Origin: Komagataeibacter sucrofermentans DSM 15973
GTDB lineage: Bacteria > Pseudomonadota > Alphaproteobacteria > Acetobacterales > Acetobacteraceae
DNA: 64,000 nt
Assembly (NCBI RefSeq): GCF_040581405.1
Contig: NZ_CP137157.1
Coordinates: 1,831,001 to 1,895,000, forward strand
Reading direction: 5' to 3'
Below, in pieces: positions 16,850 to 32,949 of this stretch; within the stretch, counting starts at the first letter, position 1, and every line of letters starts with the position of its first letter. The notes under the pieces were generated by a model. That model made no database searches. It had not been told where the DNA came from and was given only the letters and a program-made list of their open reading frames with translations. The position numbers were made by a program, and so were the translations under genes.

Positions 16850-18646
16850 TCAGGACCGAAACGCGTCCAGCACCGGGTTTTCCTCGCTCATATGCCCCAT
16901 GGGGAGCATCGATACCGGCACGGGTTCGATCAGGGGCATCCCTTCTCCCGCCACGCGCAGGCACAGCGCCAGTGACAGGGCTCCGGCATCCGGGTGGCCC
17001 AGACTGCGCGCGCCATGGGTGCGGGCACGGCCCATGCGCGGCAGCAGGTCACGCGTGGCGTCCGCCGCCTTCTGCGCGGCATCCGCCGCCGCCTGCCAGG
17101 CATCGGGCAGGGAATGCCCCTGGTCGCACTCACGTTCCAGCGTTTCGACAAAAGGAACCAGCGCATCCATGAGCGTCTTGTCGCCAACCCGCGCCCGGCC
17201 CAGTTGCATGATACGTTCCATGGCGTACCGGGCACCGTGAGCCAGTTGCGGCGCATCGGGAACCGATACATCATCCAGCGCCGTACTGAAGGCACGCAGG
17301 CCTTCACCCCACAATGCGCCTGACGTGCCGCCCGCGCGGTCGGCCCATGCATCTGCCGCCGCCGCCAGCACGGTCGCAGCCCCCGCGTGGGCCTGGGCCG
17401 CCTGCCGCGCCGCCTGACGGGCCGCAGCCGACCCACGCGCCATGCCCTGCCCATGGTCGCCATCGCCCGCCACGGCATCGATACGGCCCAGTTCGCCCTC
17501 TGCCGCAGCCAGCGCCTGCGCCAGCCGCGCCATGGTTTCCGCCACGCACAGACCACCACGCTGGCCAGCCGGGGTTGCGGCCTGCGCATGGACAACAGGG
17601 GGCTCTTCCTCCATCACGCCATCAGTTGCGCCGGGTTCACCCATAATGCCCGCATGGCGCAGCACGGCCGTCTCGACCGGCGCGCGCCAGTAGCGCTCCA
17701 GTTCCTCATCCAGCCATGTCATGGTCAGCGAACAGCCCGCCATGTCCAGACTGGTCACGTATTCCCCCACCAGCGGCGCGATAACACTCAGGCCCGCCTG
17801 CGCCAGCAGGGGCGCAAGCGCCTCCCACAGCACAAACAGTTCTTCATGCTTGGTGCTGCCCAGCCCGTTGAGCACGATCGCAACCCGCCGGGGCGCATCA
17901 TCGGGCAACTCCTTCAGAATACGGTCAAACAGCACATGCGCCAGTTGCGCGGGCGGCGGAATGTCCTGTTCATCTATGCCTGGTTCACCATGCACGCCAA
18001 GGCCAAGCGCCATGCGGTTTTTGGGCACGTGGAACAGCAGGTCCGCCTCACCGGGCAGGGTGCAGCCTTCAAACGCCACGCCAAAGGTGCGGGTCTGGCT
18101 GTTGGCGCGCCGGCCCACGGCCTCGACCGCATCAAGGTCAAGCCCTGCCTCGGCTGCTGCGCCCACAATCCGGAACACCGTCATGTCACCCGCAATGCCG
18201 CGCCTGCGGGCCATGTCGCCCACGTCGGCGCTGGCCACGTCATCGGTCGTGGCCAGCAGGCGGGTGTCGATCCCTTCACGGCGCAGGCGTTCGGCTGCAA
18301 TGCCGAAGTTCAGCACATCGCCTGCATAATTCCCGAAGCCCAGGATCACCCCCCCGCCGCGCTCGGCCCTGCGCGCCACGGAATAGATGGCCTGCGTGGA
18401 AGGCGAGGCAAAGATGTCCCCCGCCACCGCCGCATCGGCAAAGCCTGTGCCGACATAGCCGTTAAAGGCGGGGTAGTGGCCCGAACCACCCCCCACAACC
18501 ACCGCCACCTTGCCCGCCCGGCCCGGTTTTGCCCGCACGACCCCACCGCGCACCATGCGCACGATGTCACGGTGGACAAGGCTGTAGCCATGCAGCGCGG
18601 ACTGGGCGAATTCGGCAGCATTGCCGCAGATTCTGGTCATTTTCAT
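16850..18646 (-). CDS. DhaK-DhaL fusion kinase, likely for a ketotetrose such as erythrulose
   Basis: A 598-residue ATP-dependent dihydroxyacetone-kinase-type protein. Residues 1-335 form the DhaK domain with GGGSGHYP at 52-59 and the substrate-binding His219 in GLGVHGEPG. The C-terminal DhaL domain begins near 385, with AGDGDHGQGM for Mg-ATP and GGTSGALWG. Fusions of this shape include DHA kinases and the mycobacterial erythrulose kinases LerK and DerK. It is the last gene of an operon with a sugar ABC transporter and TIM-like and RpiB-like isomerases, which favours L- or D-erythrulose as substrate; dihydroxyacetone remains possible. AGGA precedes the ATG closely. A hairpin follows the stop codon. 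Confidence 0.85.
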   Translation of the reverse strand: MKMTRICGNAAEFAQSALHGYSLVHRDIVRMVRGGVVRAKPGRAGKVAVVVGGGSGHYPAFNGYVGTGFADAAVAGDIFASPSTQAIYSVARRAERGGGVILGFGNYAGDVLNFGIAAERLRREGIDTRLLATTDDVASADVGDMARRRGIAGDMTVFRIVGAAAEAGLDLDAVEAVGRRANSQTRTFGVAFEGCTLPGEADLLFHVPKNRMALGLGVHGEPGIDEQDIPPPAQLAHVLFDRILKELPDDAPRRVAIVLNGLGSTKHEELFVLWEALAPLLAQAGLSVIAPLVGEYVTSLDMAGCSLTMTWLDEELERYWRAPVETAVLRHAGIMGEPGATDGVMEEEPPVVHAQAATPAGQRGGLCVAETMARLAQALAAAEGELGRIDAVAGDGDHGQGMARGSAAARQAARQAAQAHAGAATVLAAAADAWADRAGGTSGALWGEGLRAFSTALDDVSVPDAPQLAHGARYAMERIMQLGRARVGDKTLMDALVPFVETLERECDQGHSLPDAWQAAADAAQKAADATRDLLPRMGRARTHGARSLGHPDAGALSLALCLRVAGEGMPLIEPVPVSMLPMGHMSEENPVLDAFRS

Positions 18647-18685
18647 ATATCCTCAGCTAACGGGAAACGTCGCATCAGGGCGTGG

Positions 18686-19702
18686 TCATGCCTCACGGTG
18701 CAGGTAGCGACGCGCCAGGGAATCAAAGGAGATGGCCAGCACGACAATCCCGCCGCTGACCACCGACTGCCAGTAAGGCGAGATGCCAAACAGCACGATG
18801 ATGTTCTCGATCATGCCGATGATGACGGCGCCCAGCACCGCCCCCACCGGGCTGCCCAGCCCGCCTGTAGTCGCGACACCGCCGATGACGGCGGCGGCAA
18901 TGGGGGCCAGCACCCACGTATCACCAATGGAGGGCTGCGCCGTGCCCAGCCGCGCCACCATCAGGATGCCTGCAAGGGCGGACAGGAAGCCCGCCGTGGC
19001 GAAGGCGGCGATACGGATGGCATCCACCCGCAGGCCCAGCATGCGCGCGGCCTCGGGGTTGCTGCCAATGGCATAGACGTAGCGCCCGATGGGCGTGCGC
19101 ACCATGACAAAGGCCACCACCCCCAGACAGGCCAGCAGCACGATGAAGGGCACCGGCACGCCATAAACCAGCCCCCGGCCTAGAAAGGAGATGTCACCGG
19201 GCACGCCGGTAATCGCCACCCCTTTGGTCGCCACCAGGATCGCGCCGCCATACACGCCCGCCATGCCGATGGTCAGCACCAGCGAATGCAGCCGCAACTG
19301 CGTGATCAGCACGCCATTGAGCATGCCGCACGCAGTGCCAAGCAGCAGGCACAGCACCAGTGACAGCCACGGGTTCAGCCCCGCCTGCACCATCAGCATA
19401 CCGCCCGCAATACCGGCAAGGCCGCCAATCGCCCCCACCGACAGATCGAGTTCGCCAAGGATCATCAGGATCGACTGCCCGATCGTGACCAGCCCGATAA
19501 AGGCCAGCGCGCGGGCCATGATCATCATGTTGAAGCCGGTCAGGAAATGCGGCGACAGCAGGCATGACACGCCAAAGATCAGGACAAGGGCCGCAATGAC
19601 GCCACCGAGCGGGTTGCGCATGCAGCGTGCGGCCAGCCTGCGCAGGGGGGGCAGGCGCGGCGGGGTGGGCGGCGTGGTGGGGAATGTGGTTTCAAGCGAC
19701 AT
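18686..19702 (-). CDS. Sugar ABC transporter permease (RbsC type)
   Basis: About 338 residues from the ATG at 19702; the frame continues upstream but that part lies over the ATPase gene and is not membrane-like. It has 8-10 hydrophobic segments and RbsC-family motifs: IGQSILMILGELDLSVGAIGG, PIGRYVYAIGSNPEAARMLGL (the ATPase-contact loop) and GSPVGAVLGAVIIGMIENI. The start overlaps the end of the ATPase gene by about 11 bp. It should form a homodimeric channel in the inner membrane for a pentose- or tetritol-sized substrate delivered by the binding protein at 21228-22148. Confidence 0.93.
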   Translation of the reverse strand: MSLETTFPTTPPTPPRLPPLRRLAARCMRNPLGGVIAALVLIFGVSCLLSPHFLTGFNMMIMARALAFIGLVTIGQSILMILGELDLSVGAIGGLAGIAGGMLMVQAGLNPWLSLVLCLLLGTACGMLNGVLITQLRLHSLVLTIGMAGVYGGAILVATKGVAITGVPGDISFLGRGLVYGVPVPFIVLLACLGVVAFVMVRTPIGRYVYAIGSNPEAARMLGLRVDAIRIAAFATAGFLSALAGILMVARLGTAQPSIGDTWVLAPIAAAVIGGVATTGGLGSPVGAVLGAVIIGMIENIIVLFGISPYWQSVVSGGIVVLAISFDSLARRYLHREA

Positions 19703-21197
19703 GACGAACCTCCGGCGCGCCGATAATCGCGCCCACAAGTGTATTGATGTCGGTCGTGGCCTGATCGAACGAACCGGTGATCCGTCCGGCATGCATGGTG
19801 ATGATGCGGGTGGCGCAGCGTTGCAGCTCCGCCATTTCAGACGAGACGAGAATGATCCCCACCCCTTCTTCCGCCAGTTGCTGCATGATCCGGTAGATCT
19901 GGAACTTCGTGCCGATGTCGATGCCCTTTGTCGGTTCATCAAAGATCAGCACGCGCGGCCTGCGCGCCATGGCGCGGCCGATGATCGCCTTCTGCTGGTT
20001 GCCACCCGACAGGTACATGATCTTCTTTTCCGCCGATGACGTGCGCACATCGAAGCGCTCGATGGCATCGGCCACCACGCGCCGTTCCCGGCCCGATGAA
20101 ATGACGCCACCGCCCACGATCTGGTCCATGACCGATACGGCAATGTTCTCGCGCACGCTCAGCAGCGGGAAAATGCCGTGGTGCCGCCTTTCCTCAGGCA
20201 GGTAGAGCATGCCCATAGCCACGGCCCGGTCTGGCCTGCCGCGCGGGATCTCATGCCCGTCCAGCACGCACCTTCCCGCTGTTGCGCGGTGGTAGCCAAA
20301 CAGGGTCTGCATAAGTTCAGACCGCCCTGCCCCCACCAGCCCGGCAAAGCCGAGTATCTCGCCCCGGCGCAGGGTGAAGGACGCATCCGTAAAGCCGGGG
20401 CCGGACAGATGCGCCACATCGATGATGACATCCTCCGTGCCCGACGCGACGCCGGGCTGAAAGCGCTCATCAAGCTGCACGCTGTTGCCGGACATGAGGC
20501 GGATCAGTTCGCCTTCATCAAGCTCCGCCATGGAATGGGTGCCCACGCTGCGCCCGTTGCGCAGCACGGTTACCGTATCCCCCAGCGCGAAAATCTCCTC
20601 CATCCGATGCGAGACAAACACGATCGCGCATCCTTCATCGCGAAGCGTGCGCAGGATGGAAAACAGGTGTTCCGTCTCGCTCGATGTAAGCGAGGATGTG
20701 GGCTCATCAAGGATCAGCACCCGGAAATCCCCGGCACTGGCCGCGCGCGCGATCTGGAGCAACTGCTGGTCGGGCACGCTGATATGCCCCACCTTCTGCC
20801 CCGGCCGGGCATGCATGCCAAAGCGGGTCATGAGCTTCTGCGCTGCCGCTTCCATTGCCGTGCGTGATACGGTCATGCGCCCGAAACCGGATCTGGCGAA
20901 GGGCATGAACATGTTTTCCGCAACCGTCATGGTGGGGAACAGGCTGAGTTCCTGCGGCACATACGCCACGCGATCAAACAGGGCGTGATCGGCCAGCGCG
21001 TCATGGCCCTCTATGTCCACGCGCCCCGCATCCGGGGTGACAAGACCGGTGAGCACCTTGATGAGCGTGGATTTGCCTGCGCCATTTTCCCCCGCGAGGA
21101 TATGGACCTTGCCCGCTTCCAGCATCAGGTCGATATGGTCCAGCGCCACAACGCCGGGATAGGTCTTGCGCAGGGATGAAACGTGGAGAACCGTCAT
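19692..21197 (-). CDS. Sugar ABC transporter ATPase, two ABC domains (RbsA type)
   Basis: A 501-residue tandem ABC protein. The first domain has Walker A GENGAGKST and Walker B LILDEPTSSLT, with a non-standard signature loop (ISVPDQQ). The second has the degenerate Walker A GLVGAGRSEL typical of RbsA/XylG/AraG, the signature LSGGNQQK and Walker B LIFDEPTKGID. It energises uptake by the RbsC-like permease. GGAG sits eight bases before the ATG. It is preceded by the binding-protein gene by about 30 bp and overlaps the permease gene. Confidence 0.95.
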   Translation of the reverse strand: MTVLHVSSLRKTYPGVVALDHIDLMLEAGKVHILAGENGAGKSTLIKVLTGLVTPDAGRVDIEGHDALADHALFDRVAYVPQELSLFPTMTVAENMFMPFARSGFGRMTVSRTAMEAAAQKLMTRFGMHARPGQKVGHISVPDQQLLQIARAASAGDFRVLILDEPTSSLTSSETEHLFSILRTLRDEGCAIVFVSHRMEEIFALGDTVTVLRNGRSVGTHSMAELDEGELIRLMSGNSVQLDERFQPGVASGTEDVIIDVAHLSGPGFTDASFTLRRGEILGFAGLVGAGRSELMQTLFGYHRATAGRCVLDGHEIPRGRPDRAVAMGMLYLPEERRHHGIFPLLSVRENIAVSVMDQIVGGGVISSGRERRVVADAIERFDVRTSSAEKKIMYLSGGNQQKAIIGRAMARRPRVLIFDEPTKGIDIGTKFQIYRIMQQLAEEGVGIILVSSEMAELQRCATRIITMHAGRITGSFDQATTDINTLVGAIIGAPEVRHVA

Positions 21198-21227
21198 GGT
21201 CGTTACTCCATCAATATCCGGGAAAGA

Positions 21228-22148
21228 TCAGATGTTCTTTTTGGTCAGGACATCTATGCCGGTATCTATGTATTTGGGCGTTTTCTGGCCCAGCGCGCGC
21301 TGCCATGCGGCAATGACCGCCCAGTAGCCCTGCATTTCGGGCCGGCTGGAGGCGGATGAATCCGCCACCCCGTCACGGATGAGCGCGATCATGTCGTTCA
21401 GGTTGTCCAGCCCCACTTCCTTGACCTTGCCCGTGCGCCCGCTTTCGCGGATGGCCTGGCCAATGCCCACCGGGCCTGCTGCATCGCACGCCACCCACCC
21501 GGCAAGATCGGGATGGGCCTGCATGATGGCGGAAGCCTGTTTCTGCGCGGTTTCGATACTGTCATTATCAATACCGGTCGCGACCACCCTGATCTGCGGA
21601 TATTTGGCAAACGTCGCCCGTTCGCATTCCGCGCGGCGGGTATGGTTGGGGGCGGTCGGCACGCCGATCATGATCGCAACCTCGCCCTTTTCCCCGATCA
21701 GTTCCGCAAGGCGCCGGGCTGCGATCGTGCCCTGTTCACAAAAATCGGCTCCGACCGCCGTGATGTCCATCCCTTCGGGCGGGAGGGAGTCAAACACCGT
21801 CATGGGCACCTTTTCATCCACGGCCTCGAGCATGGTCGCGTGGTTGCCCTTTTCATCCAGCAGGTCGAGGATCAGCCCGTCAGGGTGGGTTGCGATCGCG
21901 CGCTCGATAATATCGTTCTGTGAAGAGACATCTGCCGTTTCTGGCGCACGGTATTCAATTTCCACCTTGCGCCCCGTTGTCTTTCCCAGCAGGTCGGCCG
22001 CTGCCTGGGCGCCGGTATTCACCTTGTCAAACCACGGGTGAACGGTTTTGGGGATCAGCACAAAACGCAGCGGCGCGTGATCATCTGCCGCGCGTGCCGC
22101 CATTGGCGCAAGCACCAGTGCTGCGGCAAGAAGAAAAGCTGTTTTCAT
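21228..22148 (-). CDS. Periplasmic sugar-binding protein (RbsB type)
   Basis: A 306-residue secreted protein. The first 20 residues are a Sec signal peptide (KTAFLLAAALVLAPMAARA, cut after ARA). The rest is the Peripla_BP_4 fold: FVLIPKTVHPWFDKVNTGAQ at the N-lobe, DGLILDLLDEKG, and WVACDAAGPVGIGQAI in the C-lobe. It supplies substrate to the permease and ATPase encoded next. The surrounding kinases and isomerases point to a polyol or ketose of four or five carbons, perhaps erythritol or erythrulose; the ligand cannot be read from sequence. Confidence 0.92.
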   Translation of the reverse strand: MKTAFLLAAALVLAPMAARAADDHAPLRFVLIPKTVHPWFDKVNTGAQAAADLLGKTTGRKVEIEYRAPETADVSSQNDIIERAIATHPDGLILDLLDEKGNHATMLEAVDEKVPMTVFDSLPPEGMDITAVGADFCEQGTIAARRLAELIGEKGEVAIMIGVPTAPNHTRRAECERATFAKYPQIRVVATGIDNDSIETAQKQASAIMQAHPDLAGWVACDAAGPVGIGQAIRESGRTGKVKEVGLDNLNDMIALIRDGVADSSASSRPEMQGYWAVIAAWQRALGQKTPKYIDTGIDVLTKKNI

Positions 22149-22200
22149 TGTTATTGTTCTTTCGCTTTACTGCTCATCCGGCTGCACTTGCAGCCAGCAT

Positions 22201-22683
22201 TCAGCAGGTGGTAACGGCAGGCTCAGCGTGGGTATATTTCTCGCCCAGCGCATCAATACCTGCCACATTGCGGGCTGATGGGCCCTGCGGGTCAAAGGAA
22301 CAGGCGAGCCACGCATTGACGATGCTCTTGGCAACCTCCGGCCCGATCACGCGCGCGCCCATGGTAATGATGTGGGCATTATTGGACAGGGCGGCCCGTT
22401 CAGCGGAATAGGTGTCATGGGTCAGGGCCGCGCGGATGCCGGGTATCTTGTTGGCCGAAATACACACCCCGATCCCGGTGCCGCAGCACAGGATGCCCCG
22501 GTCGAATTGCCCTGACATGATGGCCTGCCCCACCCTCTCGCTCAGGCTGGCATACAGTTCGCTGCCACCGCCGGGGGGGGCGGACATGTCCAGCACGTCG
22601 TGCCCGCCGCGCTCTTTCAGGTACTGCGCAAGCATTCCCGCCATGCCGTTACCGGCGCTATCGCCACCAATGGCTATACGCAT
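22201..22683 (-). CDS. RpiB-family sugar-phosphate isomerase, likely erythrose/erythrulose-4-phosphate isomerase
   Basis: A 160-residue LacAB/RpiB protein. The N-terminus [13 protein letters not shown] differs from the ribose-5-phosphate form (usually GxDHAG) and matches the tetrose-phosphate subgroup (Brucella EryI, mycobacterial DerI) as I remember it. The [13 protein letters not shown] motif with its catalytic Cys and the His in [12 protein letters not shown] are present. It should interconvert D-erythrulose-4-P and D-erythrose-4-P, feeding the pentose phosphate pathway. GGGAG precedes the ATG by eight bases. It lies between a DeoR regulator and the ABC transporter in the same operon. Confidence 0.88.
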
Positions 22684-22720
22684 CGTTTTTCTCCCATTTG
22701 AGTAATGGAGTATCTTTTTA

Positions 22721-23536
22721 TTAAAGTTTTACCGCGTCACTGGCGCATAATCGCGCCACCTGCAGTGTAACGCCATGATCGAGCAGGCGGTCACGCGTTG
22801 CGTGATCAAGGCCGTCATCAGTTATCACCACATCGAATTCGGACAGGTCCGCCAGGCGGTTCAGCGCGTTACTGCCAAACTTCGTGCTGTCGGCCATCAG
22901 CACGCGCCTGTCCGCACTGCGCATGAGCGCGTGCTTGGCTTTGACGATATCCTGCTCCTGATGATAGGCGTTCACGCCATGCACGGCGGATACGGACATG
23001 AACAGGGTGCCCACCCGCAATGCCCCGATCGCCTGTTCGCACATCAGCCCGAAAAATGCGTCAAAGGTGGGGTGATACCGTCCGCCCAGCGCCATAAGGC
23101 TGATGGCGGGCATGGCCGCCAGAGTGGAGGCAATGCCAAGGCTGTTGGTGACCACCGTCAGGCCGCCCATCGTGGCCAGGTGATCCACCATGCAGCATGC
23201 CGTGGTCGAATCATCCAGCGCGATTACATCACCGGGCCCGATCATACCGGCCGCCAGCGCTGCCATGGCCTTCTTTTCACGCATGGCGCGACGCCTGCGA
23301 TACAGCATGCTGCTTTCGGCAATGCCGTTGGGCAGGGTTGTTACCCCGCCATGCACCCGGCGCAGCAATCCCTGTGCCGAGAGCGCCTGCAGGTCACGAT
23401 GGATGGTCATGCGGCTGGTTTCAAACCGCGTGACCAGTTCATCAATCTCCACATTGCCACGGTTCATGACATAATCGACCATGGCGCGCCTGCGGGTGGC
23501 AACCGTGCCGGTTTCAGCCAGATGCAACATGTTCAT
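22721..23536 (-). CDS. DeoR-family regulator (operon-internal)
   Basis: About 271 residues from the ATG at 23536, chosen because GGGAG lies eight bases upstream; the frame is open farther. The N-terminal helix-turn-helix reads [21 protein letters not shown], followed by HGGV. The C-terminal DeoR sensor domain has [20 protein letters not shown] and MADSTKFG; these domains bind sugar phosphates. It overlaps the 3' end of the TIM-like gene by about 23 bp and is followed by the RpiB-like gene after 37 bp. A second DeoR protein at 29037-29870 is clearly related, suggesting that the two halves of the cluster have separate regulators. Confidence 0.9.
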
Positions 23537-24296
23537 GTACCACACTCCCGATAATCTGCCTGAAATCAGCGACACTCCACGCCGCGCGCCCAATAAAGAC
23601 GCCATCTACATTGGCAAGCCGTGCATAGCCCGATGCATTGGCGCGTGTAACGCTGCCGCCATACAGCAGCGGTACTTCATGCCCGATTTTCTCCCCCGCC
23701 ATCTCCACCAGCACCGCGCGCAGGCGTGCATGGGCATGGGCGACAAACGTGGCATCGGCTGCCTGCCCCCCTGCCCCGATGGCCCAGACCGGTTCATACG
23801 CCACCAACACCTGTGCCAGACGGACGGGCGGTACACCGTGCAGCGCAATGCGCAACTGGCGGGCCAGCACCTCATGCGTTACACCAAACGCATGTTCCTG
23901 CGCCGTATCGCCAATACACACCAGCGGGCGCATACCGTGGCGCAGCACGGCATGGACCTTCAGGTTGACGGTCCAGTCCGTTTCACCAAAATGGTCGCGG
24001 CGTTCGGAATGGCCGATTTCCACCAGTGTCGCGCCACATTCGGCCAGCATGACGGGCGAGATTTCCCCTGTCCATGCCCCTTCATCCTCCCAATGGGTGT
24101 TCTGTGCCCCCACCTGCACGGATGTGCCCTCCAGTATGGCGCAGACATCCTTGAGCGATGTAAAGGCCGGGATAACAAAAGGCTGCACCCCCACGGGCGG
24201 ATGGAAGGCAGCCAGTGCGCGCGCGGCCTCGATGGCGGCGGCTGGCCCCTTGTTCATTTTCCAGCTGGTGCCAATCCATAACGGTCTGGAATGCAT
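23514..24296 (-). CDS. Triosephosphate-isomerase-like enzyme, likely L-erythrulose-1-phosphate isomerase (EryH/LerI type)
   Basis: About 260 residues with the TIM-barrel and all catalytic residues of TIM: Lys in GTSWKMNK, His in EIGHSERR and Glu in VAYEPVWAIG, plus the phosphate loop LLYGGSV. The N-terminal GTSWKMN in place of the usual GNWKMN is what I recall from the EryH (TpiA2)/LerI tetrulose-phosphate isomerases. Neighbours (RpiB-like gene, EryB-like dehydrogenase, DhaK fusion) support that role over glycolytic TIM. I start it at the ATG at 24296 (GGAG upstream); a GTG one codon earlier is also in frame. It opens the second transcription unit of the cluster. Confidence 0.88.
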   Translation of the reverse strand: MHSRPLWIGTSWKMNKGPAAAIEAARALAAFHPPVGVQPFVIPAFTSLKDVCAILEGTSVQVGAQNTHWEDEGAWTGEISPVMLAECGATLVEIGHSERRDHFGETDWTVNLKVHAVLRHGMRPLVCIGDTAQEHAFGVTHEVLARQLRIALHGVPPVRLAQVLVAYEPVWAIGAGGQAADATFVAHAHARLRAVLVEMAGEKIGHEVPLLYGGSVTRANASGYARLANVDGVFIGRAAWSVADFRQIIGSVVHEHVASG

Positions 24297-24299
24297 CAC

Positions 24300-24490
24300 G
24301 GGTCTCCATATCTGGCAGGATGCACATACATAACAGTTTACATGATATATATATCATAAGTGGCGTTATCGTTGCGCCGCGCCTGTCATGAGAATGTTCA
24401 CGTTCTCATGATCTGCAAAAATATATGCAATAATACCCTATCGTTCCAAAATAAAATTCAGGAACACAAAGTATAGGGTGAATGTCGCAA
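24300..24490. promoter_or_regulatory. Palindrome-rich promoter region before the TIM-like gene
   Basis: This 190-bp AT-rich gap holds two inverted repeats. A perfect 16-bp palindrome, ATGATATATATATCAT, lies at 24342-24357. A perfect 9-bp inverted repeat, TCATGAGAA with TTCTCATGA, spans 24386-24411 with an eight-base spacer. Neither is followed by a U tract in the minus direction, so operators are more likely than terminators. The obvious candidate binder is the DeoR protein encoded two genes downstream. Confidence 0.6.
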
Positions 24491-25489
24491 TCAGCCCATG
24501 ATGCCCATGCTGATCGGGCCATCGAGCAGCATGTTTTCGGTAATGCAGCGGTCAGCACCGAGCGGGCGTTCGGCACGCCGCCCCTTGCGGGCCAGGGCAT
24601 CATGATAGAAACAGGTTGCTTCATCTGGCGGAAGGTTGCCATCCGTGACATGGCGCATGGCCTGCACCAGCAGCATCGGGTCATCGGCATCAACAATCTT
24701 GCGCCCGAACAGGGCCGCCCGCGCGCCACAAGCCTGAGCCTGATGCAGCAGTTCAAGGCAGTCACGCGTCGTGCCGCTGCTGCCCCCCATGATCCCTACC
24801 ACCATGCGCGGATCGAATGCGCACAGTTCGGTCAGCGCAGCCGCGCCATTGAAGGGAATTTTCAGGAACTGCGGCCGTTCCGCCTGCCGCAGGCCGGCAA
24901 GGGCGCGGATAATCATGTCATTGAGGAAGACACCCCGATCCGGTTGCGCAATCCGCCCTTCATTGGGGTTGAAGACTTCAAGGAAATAGGAAAAACCATG
25001 CGCCTGCGCATCCTCGCGAAAGCTGCGGAAACATTCCAGCGCATGGGCATCGTGTTCCGCATTGCCATTGAAGGTCATGGAATACAGGCCAAGCCGGGTC
25101 TGCGCACCGGCCAGTGACGCGCTGCGAAACGGCACGGAACGCTGGGTGACATAGGGGCTGCCCCGTCCGCGCCACAGGTCGGTGGTATCATTGGCACGGA
25201 TGGCAGGCTGCACGCGGCTGTCGTTAAAAGCGCCTTCGCGCACCAGCGTTTCCAGGGTGGAGGCTGAGACCAGCATGATATCGACCACATCGAGTTCCAG
25301 CATGGCGCGGATATCATCCAGATATTCATCCCGGCAGCGATAGGGCGACAGCGCGCCCATGGCGCGGTTACGCCCCATGGCGCTGATGCCTGCCGCCATA
25401 TCGGCATCCTTGGCATCGGCCAGGATAAAGTCGGCACGCGTGTCGATCCCGGCGGCCATGCGGGCGATCTTGGTTTCATAGCGGTTCAT
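24491..25489 (-). CDS. Class I aldolase-like TIM-barrel protein (LacD/FbaB-type fold)
   Basis: A 332-residue protein that I read as a class I (Schiff-base) aldolase fold. The segment FSYFLEVFNP resembles the LacD strand with FFLEP, FLKIPFNG offers a candidate Schiff-base Lys on a late strand, and GIMGGSSGTTRDCLEL followed by ARAALFGRKI is the phosphate-binding end of the barrel. It starts three bases after the EryB-like gene and ends the kinase-dehydrogenase transcript. Brucella has the racemase EryC in this role, but this protein does not look like EryC (AP-endonuclease-2 family). The reaction is unknown; cleavage or isomerisation of a tetrulose phosphate are both possible. Confidence 0.7.
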   Translation of the reverse strand: MNRYETKIARMAAGIDTRADFILADAKDADMAAGISAMGRNRAMGALSPYRCRDEYLDDIRAMLELDVVDIMLVSASTLETLVREGAFNDSRVQPAIRANDTTDLWRGRGSPYVTQRSVPFRSASLAGAQTRLGLYSMTFNGNAEHDAHALECFRSFREDAQAHGFSYFLEVFNPNEGRIAQPDRGVFLNDMIIRALAGLRQAERPQFLKIPFNGAAALTELCAFDPRMVVGIMGGSSGTTRDCLELLHQAQACGARAALFGRKIVDADDPMLLVQAMRHVTDGNLPPDEATCFYHDALARKGRRAERPLGADRCITENMLLDGPISMGIMG

Positions 25490-25492
25490 TGT

Positions 25493-27199
25493 TCAGGCTC
25501 CGATCGGTTCGGGCTGCATGGATTTCGGGGCGGCCATGCGGGCGGCGAGATGATGTCGCGTTTCGGCTTCCTGCCAGGCCTCACGGGCCTGATGCCGGAT
25601 CGTGTCGGCATCCCACCCAAGGGTTTCGCCCGCGATGGCGGCCACTTCGTGCGTGACTTCGGGCGTTAACGCGCCGGACAGGGCAATGGTGGTGCGGCGG
25701 TAGAGAATATCCGCCACATGCCGGACCTGTTCATGGCGTGCGATGAACATGATTTCCCGGCTTGTATGGGATGGCAGGCTGCGCAGGGGCGCATCGGGCG
25801 CAAGACCGCAGAACCGCGCAATTTCCTCCGCCAGCGTGCCGTAACGGCCAAACAAAACGCGCGCCCGTTCACGCGCAATGGTGCTGGTCGTGGCCAGACG
25901 GTCAATATGGGCCTCAAGGTCCGCAGGGCGGGGATAACCGCGACCGCCCCCGATTGGCAGCGACCGGGTGGAGACCTGCCGCACCCGGCCCAGACGGGGC
26001 AGGATGGTGTCCGCCACTTCCTCCGCCAGCCCGCGAAACGTTGTCCATTTGCCCCCTACCAGCGAGAACAGCGCAACCGTTCCCAGCCGGTCCTCATGCA
26101 CGATATGGTCACGGCTGATCGCGCCAGGGTCGGACGCGTTACCCGCGGGCAAAGGGCGCACGCCACTGTAGCGGTAAATCACGTCGGACGCATCAAACCC
26201 GAAACCGGGGAACAGCGCGCCCAGCATATCGAGCATGTAGGACTGTTCCGCATCGGTGCAGATGGCCGCGTCCGGATCAGCAATAGGGATATCGGTCGAC
26301 CCCACCAGCACGTGGCCCAGAAAGGGATAGGCCAGGCAGATCCGCCCGTCCGGTGTGCCGAAATACACCATGTTCCCGCCCAGTTCGCGCAAAAGCCCCT
26401 CATGGCGCAGCACCAGGTGCGACCCCTTTGTGCCGCCGATATAACGGGTGGGCACGCCAAGGGCGGCATTGACCTGATCGATCCACGCCCCGCCCGCATT
26501 GACCACGACGGGCGCACGCGCCCGCCATGACTGCCCGCGTGGTCGGTCATGCAGGCTCACGATGCCATCATGAAAGAACTCAACATGGGTATAGGTCGCG
26601 ACATGACAGCCGTCCTGCGCCTGCACTGCATCGTGCACGCATTCATAGCCCAGCCGTTCGGGCTGGCTGATTGCTGCGTCATAATACTGCGCACAGGCCA
26701 TGACGGTGCTGCTCATATGCGGCCAGCGCGCCCGGGCCTGCCGGCCTGAAAACAGGCGGTGCCGGGGCATAACGCGGGCATGACGGCCAAGGAAGTCATA
26801 GATGAGCAGGCCCAGTTCGAGCACCAGCGCCCCCCGGTCCGTCATTTTGCCGCCCAGGCGCAGGAAGCGGCGTATGGAAGGCACGATCCCGCCAAACCAT
26901 GAGCGGACGGGCACGGTGGTGGGTAATGGATGAACGACATGCGGCGCATTGCGCAGCAGCAGGTTACGCTCCAGCGTGGATTGCGCGACCAGGCGGAACT
27001 CCCCGGTTTCAAGATATTTGATCCCGCCATGGATCAGGCGCGAGGGGGCGCTCGACGTGCCGCTACAGATATCTCCCCGGTCCACCAGCAGCACACGCAC
27101 ACCCTGCACGGCCAGTTCACGCATCAGCCCTGCGCCATTGATCCCGGCGCCGATGATGATGACATCATAATCCTTCACCGGAGGCAGGACGGTATTCAT
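25493..27199 (-). CDS. eryB: GlpD-family FAD dehydrogenase, likely erythritol-phosphate dehydrogenase (EryB type)
   Basis: A 568-residue FAD enzyme of the glycerol-3-phosphate dehydrogenase family. FAD motif IIGAGINGAGLMREL at about 15-29, then RGDICSGTSSAPSRLIHGG (family signature), KGSHLVL, VLVGSTDIP around residue 300, and a C-terminal GlpD helical domain from about 430. It should oxidise a polyol phosphate at the membrane and pass electrons to quinone. Adjacent kinase and tetrulose isomerases favour L-erythritol-4-phosphate (Brucella EryB) over glycerol-3-phosphate. Its ATG overlaps the kinase stop codon (ATGA). Confidence in the family is high, in the substrate moderate. Confidence 0.85.
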   Translation of the reverse strand: MNTVLPPVKDYDVIIIGAGINGAGLMRELAVQGVRVLLVDRGDICSGTSSAPSRLIHGGIKYLETGEFRLVAQSTLERNLLLRNAPHVVHPLPTTVPVRSWFGGIVPSIRRFLRLGGKMTDRGALVLELGLLIYDFLGRHARVMPRHRLFSGRQARARWPHMSSTVMACAQYYDAAISQPERLGYECVHDAVQAQDGCHVATYTHVEFFHDGIVSLHDRPRGQSWRARAPVVVNAGGAWIDQVNAALGVPTRYIGGTKGSHLVLRHEGLLRELGGNMVYFGTPDGRICLAYPFLGHVLVGSTDIPIADPDAAICTDAEQSYMLDMLGALFPGFGFDASDVIYRYSGVRPLPAGNASDPGAISRDHIVHEDRLGTVALFSLVGGKWTTFRGLAEEVADTILPRLGRVRQVSTRSLPIGGGRGYPRPADLEAHIDRLATTSTIARERARVLFGRYGTLAEEIARFCGLAPDAPLRSLPSHTSREIMFIARHEQVRHVADILYRRTTIALSGALTPEVTHEVAAIAGETLGWDADTIRHQAREAWQEAETRHHLAARMAAPKSMQPEPIGA

Positions 27200-28800
27200 G
27201 AAGGAATTCCCCCCATGGCTGTCGCATGATGGGCGTGCAGATGCATGGCGGCAGGATGGGCCCCGGATACAGGCTCCGGCTGTAACGGTGCCGGGGGCGA
27301 CATATCATACAGCGCGCGCCAGAACGGGCGCATGACCTGCGCCAGCGCCACATAACGATGATAGATGCCATCATACACCGCCACCTGCGCCGGTTGCGGG
27401 CCATAGGTCCGCAGCGACACATCCAGCCCCGCCACGGCGTGTTCAAGATCGGGCTGCATGCCCACCGCCACCGCCCCGGTCAGGGCCGCACCGAGTGCGC
27501 CTGCTTCCCGCACGGAAGAGACATCGACCGGCCTGTCCAGCACATCGGCAAACAGTTGCGCGATTGCAGGCTGGCCGCTGCCGCCACCAGATATGCCCAC
27601 GCGCGCTACCGGCCCCGTCTGGCACAGTGCGCTGACATGCATGCGATGGTTGAACACCATGCCTTCCACCATCGCCTGCAACAGATCGGTCCGGTCATGC
27701 CATGACTGCACGCCAAAAAATGATGCGCTGGCAGGGGCTGCATAAGGGGAGCCGAACAGGAAAGGATGGAAAAGCGGAACCGTGCGCGCGTGACGGGCAG
27801 CGCTCAGGCGCTCTTCCACCTCGCGCATCAATATCGTCGTGGCATCCCCGTTTCCAGGCAGGAGCAGGCGTGCCATCCATTCCAGATTGCTCGACGACGC
27901 AGGCGAGATTGCCATGCAGTTCCACAATCCCCGGCGGTAGCCTGCGCGACAGGCCCAGCCCTCCCCTGTAACGGGCCTGTCGCGGAAGACCTCGTTTATA
28001 GAAAACGTACCAGCCGTAAGCGACATGTCGCCCGGCCGTGTGTGACCCATGCCCACGGCGGCGGCCGTTACATCATGCAACCCCGCCGAAACCGGCGTGC
28101 CCGCCAGCAGGCCCGTTGCTGCGGCGGCGCTGGCCGTGACCGTTCCGGCCCGTGCGCAGGAATCCAGCATGGGCGGCAGGCAGTCACGCATGGCCTCCAG
28201 GCCGAGAATATCCAGTATGGCGGCACTGTACTGCTGCGTATGCAGATCGGTAAAGGCCGTGCTGGCCTCGGTTATGTCTGTTGCGACTTCTCCCGTCAGG
28301 CACAGCCGGATCCAGTCCTTGGCAAACAGGATGGAGCCGATGGCATGATAGCGGTCCGGCTCATGCGCCCGTATCCATGCCAGCAGGGTATTGGCGGAAT
28401 AGGCATAAGACCGTTGCCCCGCCAGCGGCACAAGCTGATCCAGAACCCCGCTTTGCCGCCAGTGGTCATGCAGGTCAGTCGCGCGGCTATCGAGCGACAT
28501 GATCCCGCGCCCCAGCGGGTTGCCCATGCGGTCGAGCAGGAACAGCCCGTCGCCATGCGCTGTTACGCCCACTGCGGCAATGGCCTGACCGTTCAGGCCC
28601 GCATCATCGAGCGCCATGCGGATGGTTGCGGCCACGCCCTGCCAGACCTCGCCCATGTCGCGTTCGACATGGTGCGGGCGGTCCATATGCTGGGCCACGC
28701 GACTGCGCCCCGTGCCCACGATTTCACCTTCAGGGGAAAAAATGACCGCCTTGGTGGCGGTCGAGCCGCAGTCAATTCCGATAATGAAGTTCCGGCGCAT
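27196..28800 (-). CDS. eryA: FGGY-family polyol/sugar kinase, likely erythritol kinase
   Basis: About 534 residues from the ATG at 28800, which has a perfect AGGAGG six bases upstream. N-terminal ATPase motif GIDCGSTATKAV, VTAHGDGLFLLD and SLDSRA; C-terminal half has GLHDVTAAAVGMGH, TAGTFSINE and the FGGY C-terminal signature region with VGISGGGSGQPAIAQLFADV. Its pattern resembles E. coli LyxK (L-xylulokinase), so a ketopentose is possible; the EryB-like partner and tetrulose isomerases favour erythritol. It is the first gene of the minus-strand transcript, with twin palindromes 45-77 bp upstream, and overlaps the dehydrogenase gene by ATGA. Confidence 0.82.
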   Translation of the reverse strand: MRRNFIIGIDCGSTATKAVIFSPEGEIVGTGRSRVAQHMDRPHHVERDMGEVWQGVAATIRMALDDAGLNGQAIAAVGVTAHGDGLFLLDRMGNPLGRGIMSLDSRATDLHDHWRQSGVLDQLVPLAGQRSYAYSANTLLAWIRAHEPDRYHAIGSILFAKDWIRLCLTGEVATDITEASTAFTDLHTQQYSAAILDILGLEAMRDCLPPMLDSCARAGTVTASAAAATGLLAGTPVSAGLHDVTAAAVGMGHTRPGDMSLTAGTFSINEVFRDRPVTGEGWACRAGYRRGLWNCMAISPASSSNLEWMARLLLPGNGDATTILMREVEERLSAARHARTVPLFHPFLFGSPYAAPASASFFGVQSWHDRTDLLQAMVEGMVFNHRMHVSALCQTGPVARVGISGGGSGQPAIAQLFADVLDRPVDVSSVREAGALGAALTGAVAVGMQPDLEHAVAGLDVSLRTYGPQPAQVAVYDGIYHRYVALAQVMRPFWRALYDMSPPAPLQPEPVSGAHPAAMHLHAHHATAMGGIPS

Positions 28801-28844
28801 CTTCGACCTCCTGCTATCGAGCAGCATGATGACGGATTCACTAT

Positions 28845-28877
28845 GTTATATATAACAACTATAGTGTTATATATAAC
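28845..28877. promoter_or_regulatory. Twin palindromic operator GTTATATATAAC
   Basis: The perfect 12-bp palindrome GTTATATATAAC occurs at 28845-28856 and again at 28866-28877, exactly 21 bp apart, so both face the same side of the helix. It sits between the divergent kinase gene (start 28800) and DeoR gene (start 29037). This is a typical layout for a DeoR-type repressor that controls the operon and itself. AT-rich core promoter sequences overlap it. Confidence 0.7.
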
Positions 28878-29036
28878 GCATATTAATGTGATCCCAGAGG
28901 CCGGGAACCGGACCGGATTGTGTGCAGGAGGCTGGCCAGCCATTGCGATGGCCACATTGAATGTGACACGCGTAACAGGTATCCCTTACGTTACGCGCCT
29001 ACCTGTTGACCCTGCGGATGAAGATCGATTGCCAGT

Positions 29037-29870
29037 ATGACCGACAACACGGGCCTGTCACATTCCCCGGCTTCCACGCGCCCGGCCCGACGGGGCGACA
29101 ACACGGCACGCCAGCAACGCATCCTTGACCTGCTGCTTGAAACGGGCAACGCCACCATTGACGCGCTGGCCGCCCATTTTGATGTCAGCCGCATGACCAT
29201 TCACCGTGATGCCAACGCGCTGGCACAACAGGGACTGGTGGAAAAGCTGCATGGCGGCCTTGCCCTGCGCAACCGCACCGCCACGCAGAAAACCGTAACC
29301 TACCGCACGGCCCTGGCCAGAGAGGGCAAGCAGGCGATCATTGCCCGCGCCATATCGCTGATCCGGCCGGAACAGGTTCTGGTGCTGGATGATTCAACCA
29401 CCGTAGCCGAGATGCTGCCCCTGCTGCCCGCGCTTGCCCCGCTGACCATCATTACAAACGCCATGGGCGTGATCGAGGCACTGGCCCCCTACCCCGACCT
29501 GCGCCTGATCTGCCTGGGGGGTGATTACAACCGGCCCCGCAATGCCTTTTTCGGTTTGATATGCGAACAGGCGGCGCAGGGCCTGCATGCCAATACAATG
29601 TTCCTGTCCACGTCCGTCATCCACAATGGCACGGCCTTCCAGAGCAACCCGGACATCATCAAGATCAAGCGCGTGCTCATGGAAATCTGCGACCAGACGG
29701 TTTTGCTGGTGGACAGTTCAAAATTCCGCAAAGGCGGCCTCTACCGACTGGCGGGCCTTGATACATTTGATCATGTACTGACGGATGCCCAGATCGAACC
29801 CGCCATGTATGAAAAACTGAAAGCTGCCAATATACCACTGGAAATCTGCCAGCCCCGCGATCGATCCTAG
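29037..29870 (+). CDS. DeoR-family regulator divergent from the polyol kinase
   Basis: A 277-residue transcription factor. N-terminal [24 protein letters not shown], then KLHGGL. C-terminal sensor domain: VLDDSTTVAEML, ITNAMGV, ICLGGDYN, NAFFGLICEQA and LVDSSKFRKGG. It reads away from the kinase gene, with the twin palindromes in the shared 236-bp region. It shares the motifs MTIHRD, DDSTT, FFGLxCEQA and DSxKF with the DeoR protein at 22721-23536, so the two are paralogues. A phosphorylated tetrose or tetritol is a plausible inducer. Confidence 0.92.
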   Translation: MTDNTGLSHSPASTRPARRGDNTARQQRILDLLLETGNATIDALAAHFDVSRMTIHRDANALAQQGLVEKLHGGLALRNRTATQKTVTYRTALAREGKQAIIARAISLIRPEQVLVLDDSTTVAEMLPLLPALAPLTIITNAMGVIEALAPYPDLRLICLGGDYNRPRNAFFGLICEQAAQGLHANTMFLSTSVIHNGTAFQSNPDIIKIKRVLMEICDQTVLLVDSSKFRKGGLYRLAGLDTFDHVLTDAQIEPAMYEKLKAANIPLEICQPRDRS

Positions 29871-29929: not shown

Positions 29930-30436
29930 TTAGGCCGCGGCATGCTGGTTTACGCTCATCGCGGCGATGTGCGTCAGTTTCTGGTCAGCAGATTTTTCTT
30001 CTTCAAGTGTGCGTTCCAGAACGGCCGCGCAGTCGGCACGGCCAAGCTGCCGGGCATAGGCGACAAGGCTGCCATAACGGGTTATTTCATAATGCTCGAC
30101 AGCCTGCGCCGCCGAGAGCATGGCAGCATCACGCACCTCGGGATCATCGCAGTCGCTGATGATATCCTTTGCCTCGGCAAGGATTCCATCCATGGCCTGA
30201 CAGGTCACGCCTTTAACAGGCTGACCATGCATCTGGAATACCTGCTCGAGCCTGCGTACATGCTCCTGTGTTTCGGTCAGATGATGCTGGAACGCGGCCT
30301 TAAGGTCCGGTTCAGTCGCCTTTTCCGCCATGGCGGGCAGGTTTTTCACGATCTGGTTTTCGGCATAATAGATATCCTGAAGCGTATGCACGAACAGATC
30401 ATCAAGGGTTTTTATCGGTTTTGAAAACAGGCCCAT
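29930..30436 (-). CDS. DUF892 ferritin-like protein (YciE/YciF family)
   Basis: A 168-residue, mainly helical protein. Conserved pattern of the DUF892 four-helix fold: TLDDLFVHTLQDIYYAENQI at the start, LPAMAEKATEPDLKAAFQHH with TQEHVRRLEQVF, AMDGILAEA, and AVEHYEITRYGSL. YciE/YciF proteins have a dinuclear metal site and are induced by osmotic or general stress; the exact role is unsettled. In enterobacteria yciE/yciF neighbour yciG, and here a KGG-repeat (YciG-like) gene lies about 120 bp upstream on the same strand, so the association is kept. Candidate metal ligands are the Glu/His in AENQ, EHVRRLE and EHYE. Confidence 0.93.
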   Translation of the reverse strand: MGLFSKPIKTLDDLFVHTLQDIYYAENQIVKNLPAMAEKATEPDLKAAFQHHLTETQEHVRRLEQVFQMHGQPVKGVTCQAMDGILAEAKDIISDCDDPEVRDAAMLSAAQAVEHYEITRYGSLVAYARQLGRADCAAVLERTLEEEKSADQKLTHIAAMSVNQHAAA

Positions 30437-30506
30437 TGTTCTTCTCCATTTTCAAAAAGATATTCGTTACCTGACTGGCGTGGGGCAGATCGGAGACTGC
30501 CAACCT

Positions 30507-30540
30507 CCGGGAACGCCAGCGCTATTGCTGGCGCCCCCGG
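30507..30540. other. Hairpin between the KGG-repeat and DUF892 genes
   Basis: CGCCAGC and GCTGGCG pair around a six-base loop, with flanking CCGGG/CCCGG that can extend the stem. It lies just after the KGG-repeat stop codon and before the DUF892 gene. No U run follows in the minus direction, so it may partly terminate or stabilise the upstream message. Confidence 0.4.
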
Positions 30541-30554
30541 TCTTCAACATATAG

Positions 30555-30833
30555 TCAGCTGTTTTTATGGCTCTGCTGGCCAGCTTTTACATGCTGTTCA
30601 TGCGTGCCGCCCCGGGTGCCGGTAGTGTGCTGGCCCTCGTCTTTCCCACCATGCGACGTGCCGGTGTTCTTGTGGCTCTGCTCACCGGCCTTGACATGCT
30701 GTTCATGCGTGCCGCCCCGGGTGCCGGTGGTGTGCTGACCTTCGTCTTTCCCACCATGCGATGTGCCGGTGTTCTTGTGGCTCTGCTCACCGGCCTTGAC
30801 GTGCTGTTCATGGCTGCCGCCCTGATTTGCCAT
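30555..30833 (-). CDS. KGG-repeat general stress protein (YciG-like)
   Basis: A very hydrophilic 92-residue protein from the ATG at 30833 (AAGGA upstream). After MANQ it is made of a 35-residue unit beginning GGSHEQHVKAGEQSHKNTG and ending HGGKDEGQHTTGTR, repeated twice, plus an 18-residue third copy ending KNS. The units resemble the stress-induced KGG motif of YciG and B. subtilis GsiB, in which GGK repeats are frequent. It has no hydrophobic core and is probably disordered, like plant LEA-type protectants. It neighbours the YciE/YciF-like gene, consistent with a shared stress function. Confidence 0.85.
   Translation of the reverse strand: MANQGGSHEQHVKAGEQSHKNTGTSHGGKDEGQHTTGTRGGTHEQHVKAGEQSHKNTGTSHGGKDEGQHTTGTRGGTHEQHVKAGQQSHKNS
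30558..30821 (-). repeat. 105-bp in-frame tandem repeat
   Basis: Two full 105-bp copies (30717-30821 and 30612-30716) and one half copy (30558-30611) within the KGG-repeat gene. The copies are almost identical at the nucleotide level, which suggests recent duplication and copy-number variation by slippage or recombination. Confidence 0.85.
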
Positions 30834-30872
30834 TGGTCCATTCCTTTTTGCTGATAGAGAACGGTCGTTCAT

Positions 30873-31426
30873 CCGACCGTCACATCACAAACCACTCGAC
30901 TTGAATTCAGTTTCAAAAATTCAGCAGAAAAATTATTTTTAAAAATAAAAACAAACAGGACCAACCATATATACTTAAATTATATTATTGTAGTGGAACG
31001 TTATAATTGATGATTATTCTCCACAAACGCACGCATGTGTCACAGGCATTCTGATACAGGCTGATACAGATGGCATCAGCATGAGGATGGCGAAAGGTCG
31101 CTTTCAGGGCATGCCATCAGTCTTTACCTGCATGGCGCAGGCCTGTACCCACGCCTGCTGCCCCGCTCACTCCCGGCGCGTTTGCAATATCATTGTCGAA
31201 AAATTTTCCCATAACAGTTCCAGTATTCATCCGATGTATATTGATATGGATTCATTCTCACGACAACGGGATAAAGAATTACCGGTATTATAATGGCCGC
31301 CAGACAGACGCCAGTGAAAATTCCATACACCCGTTTTCACGCATGACGGCGCAACCAGCGGCCCCCTCATGCCTTAAACCCTGTAACTGCCCCAGACAAA
31401 ACCAGATACCGCCGGAGCGATTTCCC
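30873..31426. other. Intergenic region upstream of the molybdenum hydroxylase operon
   Basis: About 550 bp, strongly AT-rich between 30900 and 31010, and otherwise without a recognisable gene. The frame that continues into the first subunit runs back to 31193, but that part has no family similarity and the usual N-terminus begins at 31427. Promoters for the KGG-repeat gene (leftward) and the hydroxylase (rightward) should lie here. Confidence 0.5.
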
Positions 31427-31933
31427 ATGACCCGTGAGTCTGTCGCCATCCCGTGTCGCCTTCAGATCAATGGCCAGAGTTACGCTGCTGACCTGCCGCC
31501 ATCCGTCACGTTACTCGATCTGCTGCGCGAGCGGCTTGACCTGACCGGCACGAAAAAGGGATGCGATCATGGCCAATGTGGGGCCTGCACCGTGCTGGTA
31601 AATGGAAAGCGGGTCAAAAGCTGCCTTATCCTCGCTGTCTCGATCCCGGATGCCGCAATCACGACCATTGAGGGGATCAGCCAGAACGACCGGTTACACC
31701 CGATGCAGCAGGCCTTTATTGATTCAGATGCCTTCCAGTGCGGTTACTGCACGCCGGGACAGATCATGTCGGCCATTGCCCTGCTGGAGGAAGGTCATAT
31801 CCATTCCCGCGCGGAAATCCGTGAGTTCATGAGCGGCAATCTATGCCGTTGCGGCGCCTATAACGGCATAATCGACGCCATCGAACGGGTCGTGCGCCAG
31901 CAGCACCCCAACCCGGCCGGAGCGGCGGCATGA
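31427..31933 (+). CDS. Molybdenum hydroxylase, [2Fe-2S] subunit
   Basis: About 168 residues. The plant-type ferredoxin motif is at GCDHGQCGACTV plus a following SCL, and the second cluster domain shows CGYCTPGQ and CRCGAY. Both [2Fe-2S] clusters should therefore be complete. It is the small electron-transfer subunit of a xanthine-oxidase-family enzyme. The periplasmic homologue PaoA (YagT) has a twin-arginine signal; none is visible here from the ATG at 31427 or from an upstream ATG at 31343, so a cytoplasmic location is likely. The stop overlaps the FAD-subunit start (ATGA). Confidence 0.93.
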   Translation: MTRESVAIPCRLQINGQSYAADLPPSVTLLDLLRERLDLTGTKKGCDHGQCGACTVLVNGKRVKSCLILAVSIPDAAITTIEGISQNDRLHPMQQAFIDSDAFQCGYCTPGQIMSAIALLEEGHIHSRAEIREFMSGNLCRCGAYNGIIDAIERVVRQQHPNPAGAAA

Positions 31934-32937: not shown

Positions 32938-32949
32938 AGGATAGTCGCC

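Follow-up and report, generated by a model that had tools for sequence, protein, structure and literature searches.

Two pathways for the catabolism of C4 polyols are known, and in the excerpted text of PMC12780249 tetrose-specific transporters and kinases are unreported. In the ery pathway of rhizobia and Brucella, a kinase (EryA), a GlpD-type dehydrogenase (EryB) and a third enzyme (EryC) are followed by the isomerases EryH and EryI (Brucella enzyme names and roles as in an extract of PMC11508834); the part of a survey of ery loci consulted here places them in Rhizobiales and a few other groups, with zero occurrences in Gluconobacter, Gluconacetobacter and Acetobacter (PMC3599248). Mycobacterium smegmatis has a tetritol pathway with LerK, LerI, DerK and DerI; according to the extract of PMC10733421, LerI and DerI jointly turn L-erythrulose-1-phosphate into erythrose-4-phosphate in Escherichia coli, and EryC is named D-erythrulose 1-phosphate 3-epimerase. 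Here we describe a cluster related to both at positions 16850–29870 of a 64,000-nucleotide stretch of Komagataeibacter sucrofermentans DSM 15973 (contig NZ_CP137157.1, 1,831,001–1,895,000; hereafter the window). With slightly better than even confidence, we read it from its sequence as two joined modules, likely separately controlled: a ketose module leading to D-erythrose-4-phosphate, and a polyol module whose ketose-1-phosphate is likely cleaved by an aldolase-fold protein, U332.

The genes of the cluster run along the minus strand from 28827 down to 16850 in the order FGGY kinase, GlpD-type dehydrogenase, U332, isomerase resembling triosephosphate isomerase (TIM), DeoR1, RpiB-like isomerase, binding protein, ATPase, permease and DhaK-DhaL fusion kinase, with a divergent regulator, DeoR2, on the plus strand. 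We call the first three unit P, and the importer, fusion kinase and two isomerases unit K. Every gene named in a preliminary description of this DNA is a complete open reading frame within the cluster; overlooked there were U332, between the dehydrogenase and TIM genes, and both DeoR regulators. In the ketose module, L-erythrulose would be imported, phosphorylated by the DhaK fusion and isomerised by the TIM-like and RpiB-like enzymes to D-erythrose-4-phosphate; in the polyol module, the FGGY kinase and dehydrogenase would make a ketose-1-phosphate that U332 would cut into dihydroxyacetone phosphate (DHAP) and an aldehyde. If the polyol were a tetritol, erythrulose-1-phosphate would be a shared intermediate, giving the cluster two entries and two exits, through the isomerases to D-erythrose-4-phosphate or through U332 to DHAP and formaldehyde.

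The predicted conversion of L-erythrulose to D-erythrose-4-phosphate by unit K is well supported. The RpiB-like isomerase (22201–22683, minus strand) scores 244.3 bits against NF051858, the NCBIfam equivalog model of D-erythrulose-4-phosphate isomerase (cut-off 240), compared with 119.7 bits for E. coli RpiB, from which it is also placed apart, with the EryI and DerI type. The TIM-like isomerase (23514–24299, minus strand) has as its best match in the PDB a solved L-erythrulose-1-phosphate isomerase, 11ef, at 240.9 bits (next chain, 175), which assigns it, by sequence, to the LerI type; a quick 31-row tree groups it with EryH of Rhizobium leguminosarum and Shinella, and a branch with a support of 99 parts it from four acetic acid bacterial housekeeping TIMs, the genome's own second TIM included, and from E. 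coli TpiA, which is itself a long branch. Both the window protein and 11ef carry S12 and E94, as do 32 of 32 distinct C4-type TIMs; N12 is found in all five glycolytic TIMs, four of which have I94 and the fifth L94. Three divergent TIMs were kept out of this count as 'other' and, read separately, are S/E in two cases and G/A in one. Among the nearest 120 homologs, positions 12 and 94 hold S and E in 91, N with L or V in 14, G and E in eight, N and E in four, and a gap with E in three. That the two isomerases might be housekeeping copies is ruled out by their tree positions apart from glycolytic TIMs and E. coli RpiB.

The DhaK-DhaL fusion (16850–18646, minus strand; Pfam Dak1 and Dak2), a candidate L-erythrulose kinase, lies apart from the dihydroxyacetone kinase of Citrobacter; that enzyme falls together with the second DhaK of the genome (574 residues, C1:1307006) at a support of 96–100. 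An ordinary dihydroxyacetone kinase is ruled out by this separation; against the glycerone kinase model the fusion reaches 364.7 bits, the cut-off being 574.95, and one of its relatives (P0142) bears the source name 'Erythrulose kinase'. LerK and DerK are likewise DhaK-family kinases, and the joining of a kinase to a LerI-type TIM and a DerI-type RpiB recalls M. smegmatis; unlike there, import or periplasmic production would supply the ketose, the cluster genes include no cytosolic tetritol dehydrogenase, and an FGGY-GlpD-aldolase module is attached. The importer (18686–22148, minus strand) consists of a CUT2-type periplasmic binding protein (21228–22148; Pfam Peripla_BP_4), an ATPase (19692–21197; ABC_tran in two stretches) and a permease (18686–19699; BPD_transp_2). 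On a Shinella plasmid (L022, 15853–21009), an importer 57–64% identical to it stands beside a DhaK fusion. Within the comparisons made, the ketose half of the preliminary description survives its own refuting condition, with kinase, TIM and RpiB all placed away from their housekeeping counterparts, its assignment of the isomerases to the EryH/EryI and LerI/DerI kind borne out and its ribose-type ATP-binding cassette importer present.

The SldAB enzyme oxidises erythritol to L-erythrulose in the periplasm. The genome holds a SldB/SldA-like pair of 128 and 755 residues that splits the membrane pyrroloquinoline quinone (PQQ) dehydrogenase model (larger part 767 bits, below the cut-off of 832.65), which makes such periplasmic oxidation plausible in this bacterium. 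Acetic acid bacteria release partly oxidised polyols, and unit K would offer them a predicted means of recovering L-erythrulose.

Judged from its sequences, unit P is real but is an enzyme set other than EryAB; the preliminary description, which had proposed a polyol route through an FGGY kinase and a GlpD/EryB-like dehydrogenase, was correct in seeing a second entry module. Both genes are present (27196–28827, Pfam FGGY_N/C, and 25493–27199, Pfam DAO and DAO_C; minus strand), but the kinase is 28% identical to R. leguminosarum EryA and falls in a separate clade outside the EryA type, and the dehydrogenase is 29% identical to rhizobial EryB and outside the EryB type; the EryB orthologs of five acetic acid bacterial loci are 69–73% identical to the rhizobial protein. 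EryC was not found in the window's genome at E ≤ 1e-60 with a query that retrieves orthologs of 71–79% identity in five relatives. Across the 397 Acetobacteraceae genomes searched, EryC occurs in five only (G001, G022, G025, G048 and G079), all with EryD-EryA-EryB-EryC loci. U332 as a remote EryC was rejected, the two having no significant similarity. Because the kinase and dehydrogenase are not EryA and EryB and EryC is absent, we can only infer the substrate of unit P and its tie to tetrulose phosphate. The two kinds of polyol kinase-dehydrogenase pair can coexist, since G022 holds an EryDABC locus alongside a complete cluster of the window type.

A window-type dehydrogenase (E ≤ 1e-150) is found in 27 of the 397 genomes, 26 of which have an RpiB scoring at least 228 bits against the D-erythrulose-4-phosphate isomerase model (the exception, G012, reaches 170). 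Eight genomes of the same genus that are devoid of the dehydrogenase contain neither U332 nor an RpiB of at least 228 bits, three of them having an RpiB at 172–174 bits. The gene set is thus beyond chance, as dehydrogenase, U332 and DerI-type RpiB occur together across genomes. U332 adjoins the dehydrogenase in 17 of the 27 and is displaced in five; two have EryC without U332 (G048 and G079) and three have neither (G008, 99% complete; G012, 86%; G041, 90%). In G008 the entire cluster is present with U332 alone missing, and a search for a U332 relic between its dehydrogenase and TIM genes gave no convincing match.

U332 (24491–25489, minus strand; 332 residues) is the interesting unknown of the cluster. 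It has no Pfam match, and its nearest named relatives are from Komagataeibacter nataicola (94%) and Gluconacetobacter entanii (92%). Its predicted structure has the TIM-barrel fold of the DhnA/LsrF class I aldolases, and a candidate Schiff-base lysine, K210, is present in 104 of 104 aligned rows, on a predicted strand at 209–212; in a free alignment it falls one residue from K203 of LsrF, which we take to be the catalytic lysine. The family also carries GG and GR motifs. A profile comparison of U332 with FbaB yielded nothing usable, and YihT appears among its fold matches at 13–15% identity in fold alignments. As with YihV and YihT of the sulfo-Embden-Meyerhof-Parnas pathway, where a ketose-1-phosphate is made and split, a kinase stands beside a class I aldolase-fold protein; YihT, of the DhnA type, nevertheless differs in substrate as well as sequence, and the U332 family is without a Pfam model. 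YihV, the sulfofructose kinase, is of the PfkB type.

This is a widespread and uncharacterised aldolase-fold family (of 7999 candidates scored, 6140 reach E 0.001 or better), and its substrate class is testable. In 94 of 103 places examined, C4 clusters included, a sugar kinase gene (PfkB, DhaK or FGGY) lies no more than 7 kb away; in 76 of the 103, a kinase is nearby but no TIM, RpiB or EryC relative within 7 kb, counts in which 16 of the 103 stretches end less than 3 kb from U332. U332 is most likely a DHAP-forming ketose-1-phosphate aldolase, an epimerase being the other candidate. Among the matches listed in the open literature, we found no earlier work on this family or on this cluster in acetic acid bacteria. 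In Asaia (L104, 3959–6893) and Ameyamaea (L113, 6476–9358), a U332 relative is directly paired with a second DhaK-DhaL fusion away from FGGY and GlpD genes, and on a Vibrio nigripulchritudo plasmid (L088, 2611–9568) a U332 relative is grouped with GlpD, an FGGY kinase and both an alcohol and an aldehyde dehydrogenase; the features listed there include no C4 isomerase.

Relatives in which the modules are separated bear on both halves of the cluster. Ketose modules of TIM, RpiB, importer and DhaKL stand apart from FGGY-GlpD genes in G001, G079, G218 and G323. Conversely, Gluconobacter japonicus, G. thailandicus, G. cerinus and Gluconobacter sp. Gdi have an FGGY-GlpD-U332-TIM-DeoR locus, and the roughly 21 kb read contains no relatives of the cluster's RpiB, importer or DhaK; in two of these four genomes (G218 and G323), TIM-DeoR-RpiB-importer-DhaKL is found elsewhere. 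In these two the ketose-locus TIM has S12/E94, and the TIM on the U332 side has N12/L94 in four of four (L160, 9207–9986; L162, 8715–9494; L007, 11167–11946; L015, 11195–11974), possibly a natural change of substrate range. Read as serving DHAP, a polyol-side TIM with both C4 signature residues replaced speaks for U332 as a DHAP-forming aldolase. Of the two entry routes to tetrulose phosphate in the preliminary description, the ketose entry is the better supported, and ketose modules separate from the polyol genes speak for two routes; the polyol entry is weaker, and its product may go to DHAP through U332 instead of to the isomerases.

Control regions are consistent with this division. An operator-like pair of copies of GTTATATATAAC (28845–28877), candidate regulator sites, lies upstream of the FGGY gene; these are its only two matches in the 64 kb at one mismatch or fewer, with none in 100 shuffles, and a palindrome of the same type is found upstream of FGGY, in one or two copies, in K. 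nataicola (L006) and K. xylinus (L003), the remaining relatives tested having no perfect palindrome at this place. Another candidate site, ATGATATATATATCAT (24342–24357), lies upstream of the TIM gene; the window has no second exact copy of it, only one with three mismatches at the FGGY operator (28843–28858; 0.04 expected), and this site too is present in L003 and L006. The two kinds differ at three of 16 positions. A search of 22 loci for perfect palindromes ahead of the FGGY, TIM and RpiB genes showed the two kinds of the window in L003 and L006 only, with none in G060, Gluconobacter, Asaia or others. Two DeoR-family regulators, both with Pfam DeoRC and HTH_DeoR domains, are at hand: DeoR1 (22721–23605, minus strand, as the listed reading frame; the real start is probably more internal) and DeoR2 (29037–29870, plus strand), divergent from unit P, whose relatives of 62–93% identity occupy the same place in the clusters of several relatives. 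Two related regulators and two transcription units would suit the palindrome pattern, and separate control of the modules appears likely from these sequences. Eight weak consensus sites came out of a promoter scan in which 4.4 were expected; the FGGY and TIM genes each have one of them upstream.

The main alternative, which we consider unlikely, keeps U332 within a C4 route as a non-homologous replacement for EryC, a Schiff-base D-erythrulose-1-phosphate 3-epimerase (tetrulose-4-phosphate racemase) giving the L form to the TIM-like isomerase. The comparison with the ery pathway invites it: the isomerases are of the EryH/EryI type, the order of kinase, GlpD-type dehydrogenase, third enzyme and isomerases is the same, a DeoR gene is beside the TIM gene, and U332 sits between dehydrogenase and TIM genes as eryC follows eryB in rhizobia. 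EryC is moreover absent here and rare in the family, and two of the five polyol-dehydrogenase genomes without U332 possess it. The likeness ends with the distant kinase and dehydrogenase, the aldolase-fold protein in the EryC slot, the added ketose kinase and the adjoining CUT2 importer. An epimerase would leave the route incomplete in the 76 places where U332 has a kinase but no isomerase or EryC nearby; the fold is that of DHAP aldolases, the split Gluconobacter loci pair U332 with a TIM altered at both C4 signature residues, and G022 has EryC as well as U332 where G008 has neither. Those same contexts without C4 isomerases, the non-EryAB kinase and dehydrogenase, and the separation of polyol genes from RpiB in the split loci would suit a polyol module unrelated to C4 metabolism that only happens to neighbour the erythrulose module; its substrate would be a pentitol or hexitol, broken down by FGGY kinase, GlpD and U332 to DHAP and either glycolaldehyde or glyceraldehyde. 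This is possible but still improbable, given that G008 and G041, without U332, keep FGGY-GlpD beside C4-type TIM and RpiB (L093 and L098) and that DerI-type RpiB accompanies the dehydrogenase in 26 of 27 genomes.

An autoinducer-2 system like that of LsrK and LsrF is suggested by the best PDB sequence matches of the kinase (LsrK) and, weakly, of U332 (LsrF, E 0.06), and by an Lsr/Ara-like importer whose permease matches AraH and then LsrC. It is hardly credible: scores against the LsrK, LsrC, LsrA and LsrB models fall far under their curated cut-offs, by which we rule it out, the LsrG and LsrR models match none of the ten cluster proteins scanned, and the LerI- and DerI-type isomerases would have no role.

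Within our preferred reading of two joined modules, a narrower version makes U332 a dedicated erythrulose-1-phosphate aldolase (the EC 4.1.2.2 reaction, DHAP and formaldehyde), a C4 member of an unnamed class I family clustered with LerI/DerI-type isomerases. We regard this as quite doubtful; if true, it would be a natural version of the engineered erythrulose monophosphate (EuMP) route, in principle reversible. The extract of PMC10733421 describes that cycle in E. coli, with DHAP aldolase, LerI and DerI together, notes the EC 4.1.2.2 aldol reaction as a side activity of known aldolases, and asks for study of the natural co-occurrence of an erythrulose-1-phosphate aldolase with these isomerases, for which our cluster is a candidate. 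The EuMP cycle is synthetic and uses FucA or RhaD with EryC, whereas a single natural cluster here joins a predicted aldolase to LerI/DerI-type genes. In the part of PMC3599248 considered here, a putative fructose bisphosphate aldolase gene lies by the ery genes in two Mesorhizobium and by rpiB in Brucella, and erythritol use by Sinorhizobium meliloti is independent of fucA.

Several observations weigh against our reading of the two modules and of U332. Thermodynamics favours condensation over cleavage of a tetrulose phosphate, and cleavage would yield formaldehyde. The sequence similarity of U332 to LsrF is limited to the C-terminal part, the remainder resting on the predicted model. The displaced U332 genes, all in one Asaia-type genus, lie 15–17 kb away in four genomes and on another contig in the fifth, with a stop inside two of the five matches; a polyol module can also exist without U332, as five of the 27 dehydrogenase genomes do without it. 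At 48 of 60 discriminating cells the N12/L94 TIM still has the C4 letter, and it has lost P44, common to C4 and glycolytic groups; it has therefore not simply reverted to the triose type. N-type copies also occur in Gluconobacter strains that have an S-type TIM in their fused cluster (P0267 and P0269). All trees are quick ones with SH-aLRT support only and long-branch warnings, and the DhaK tree, with its long branches, was built without LerK and DerK references. The wider clade of the fusion is not confined to erythrulose, since a rhizobial relative 58.5% identical to it (L148, 2759–9707) has as neighbours PdxA, a sugar phosphate isomerase/epimerase and a tricarboxylate-type transporter, rather than erythrulose isomerases. 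Between U332 and TIM the terminator scan listed nothing, so the division into two transcription units is tentative. Finally, in the extract of PMC10733421, YihT, a fold relative of U332, and FbaA failed as erythrulose-1-phosphate synthases in vivo, where the class II enzymes FucA and RhaD worked.

Close to the cluster, the window encodes a three-subunit molybdenum enzyme of the aldehyde oxidase/xanthine dehydrogenase type, with 2Fe-2S, FAD and molybdopterin subunits (31193–35184), and between the two lie a DUF892 protein and a small, repetitive one that matches no Pfam family (29930–30872).

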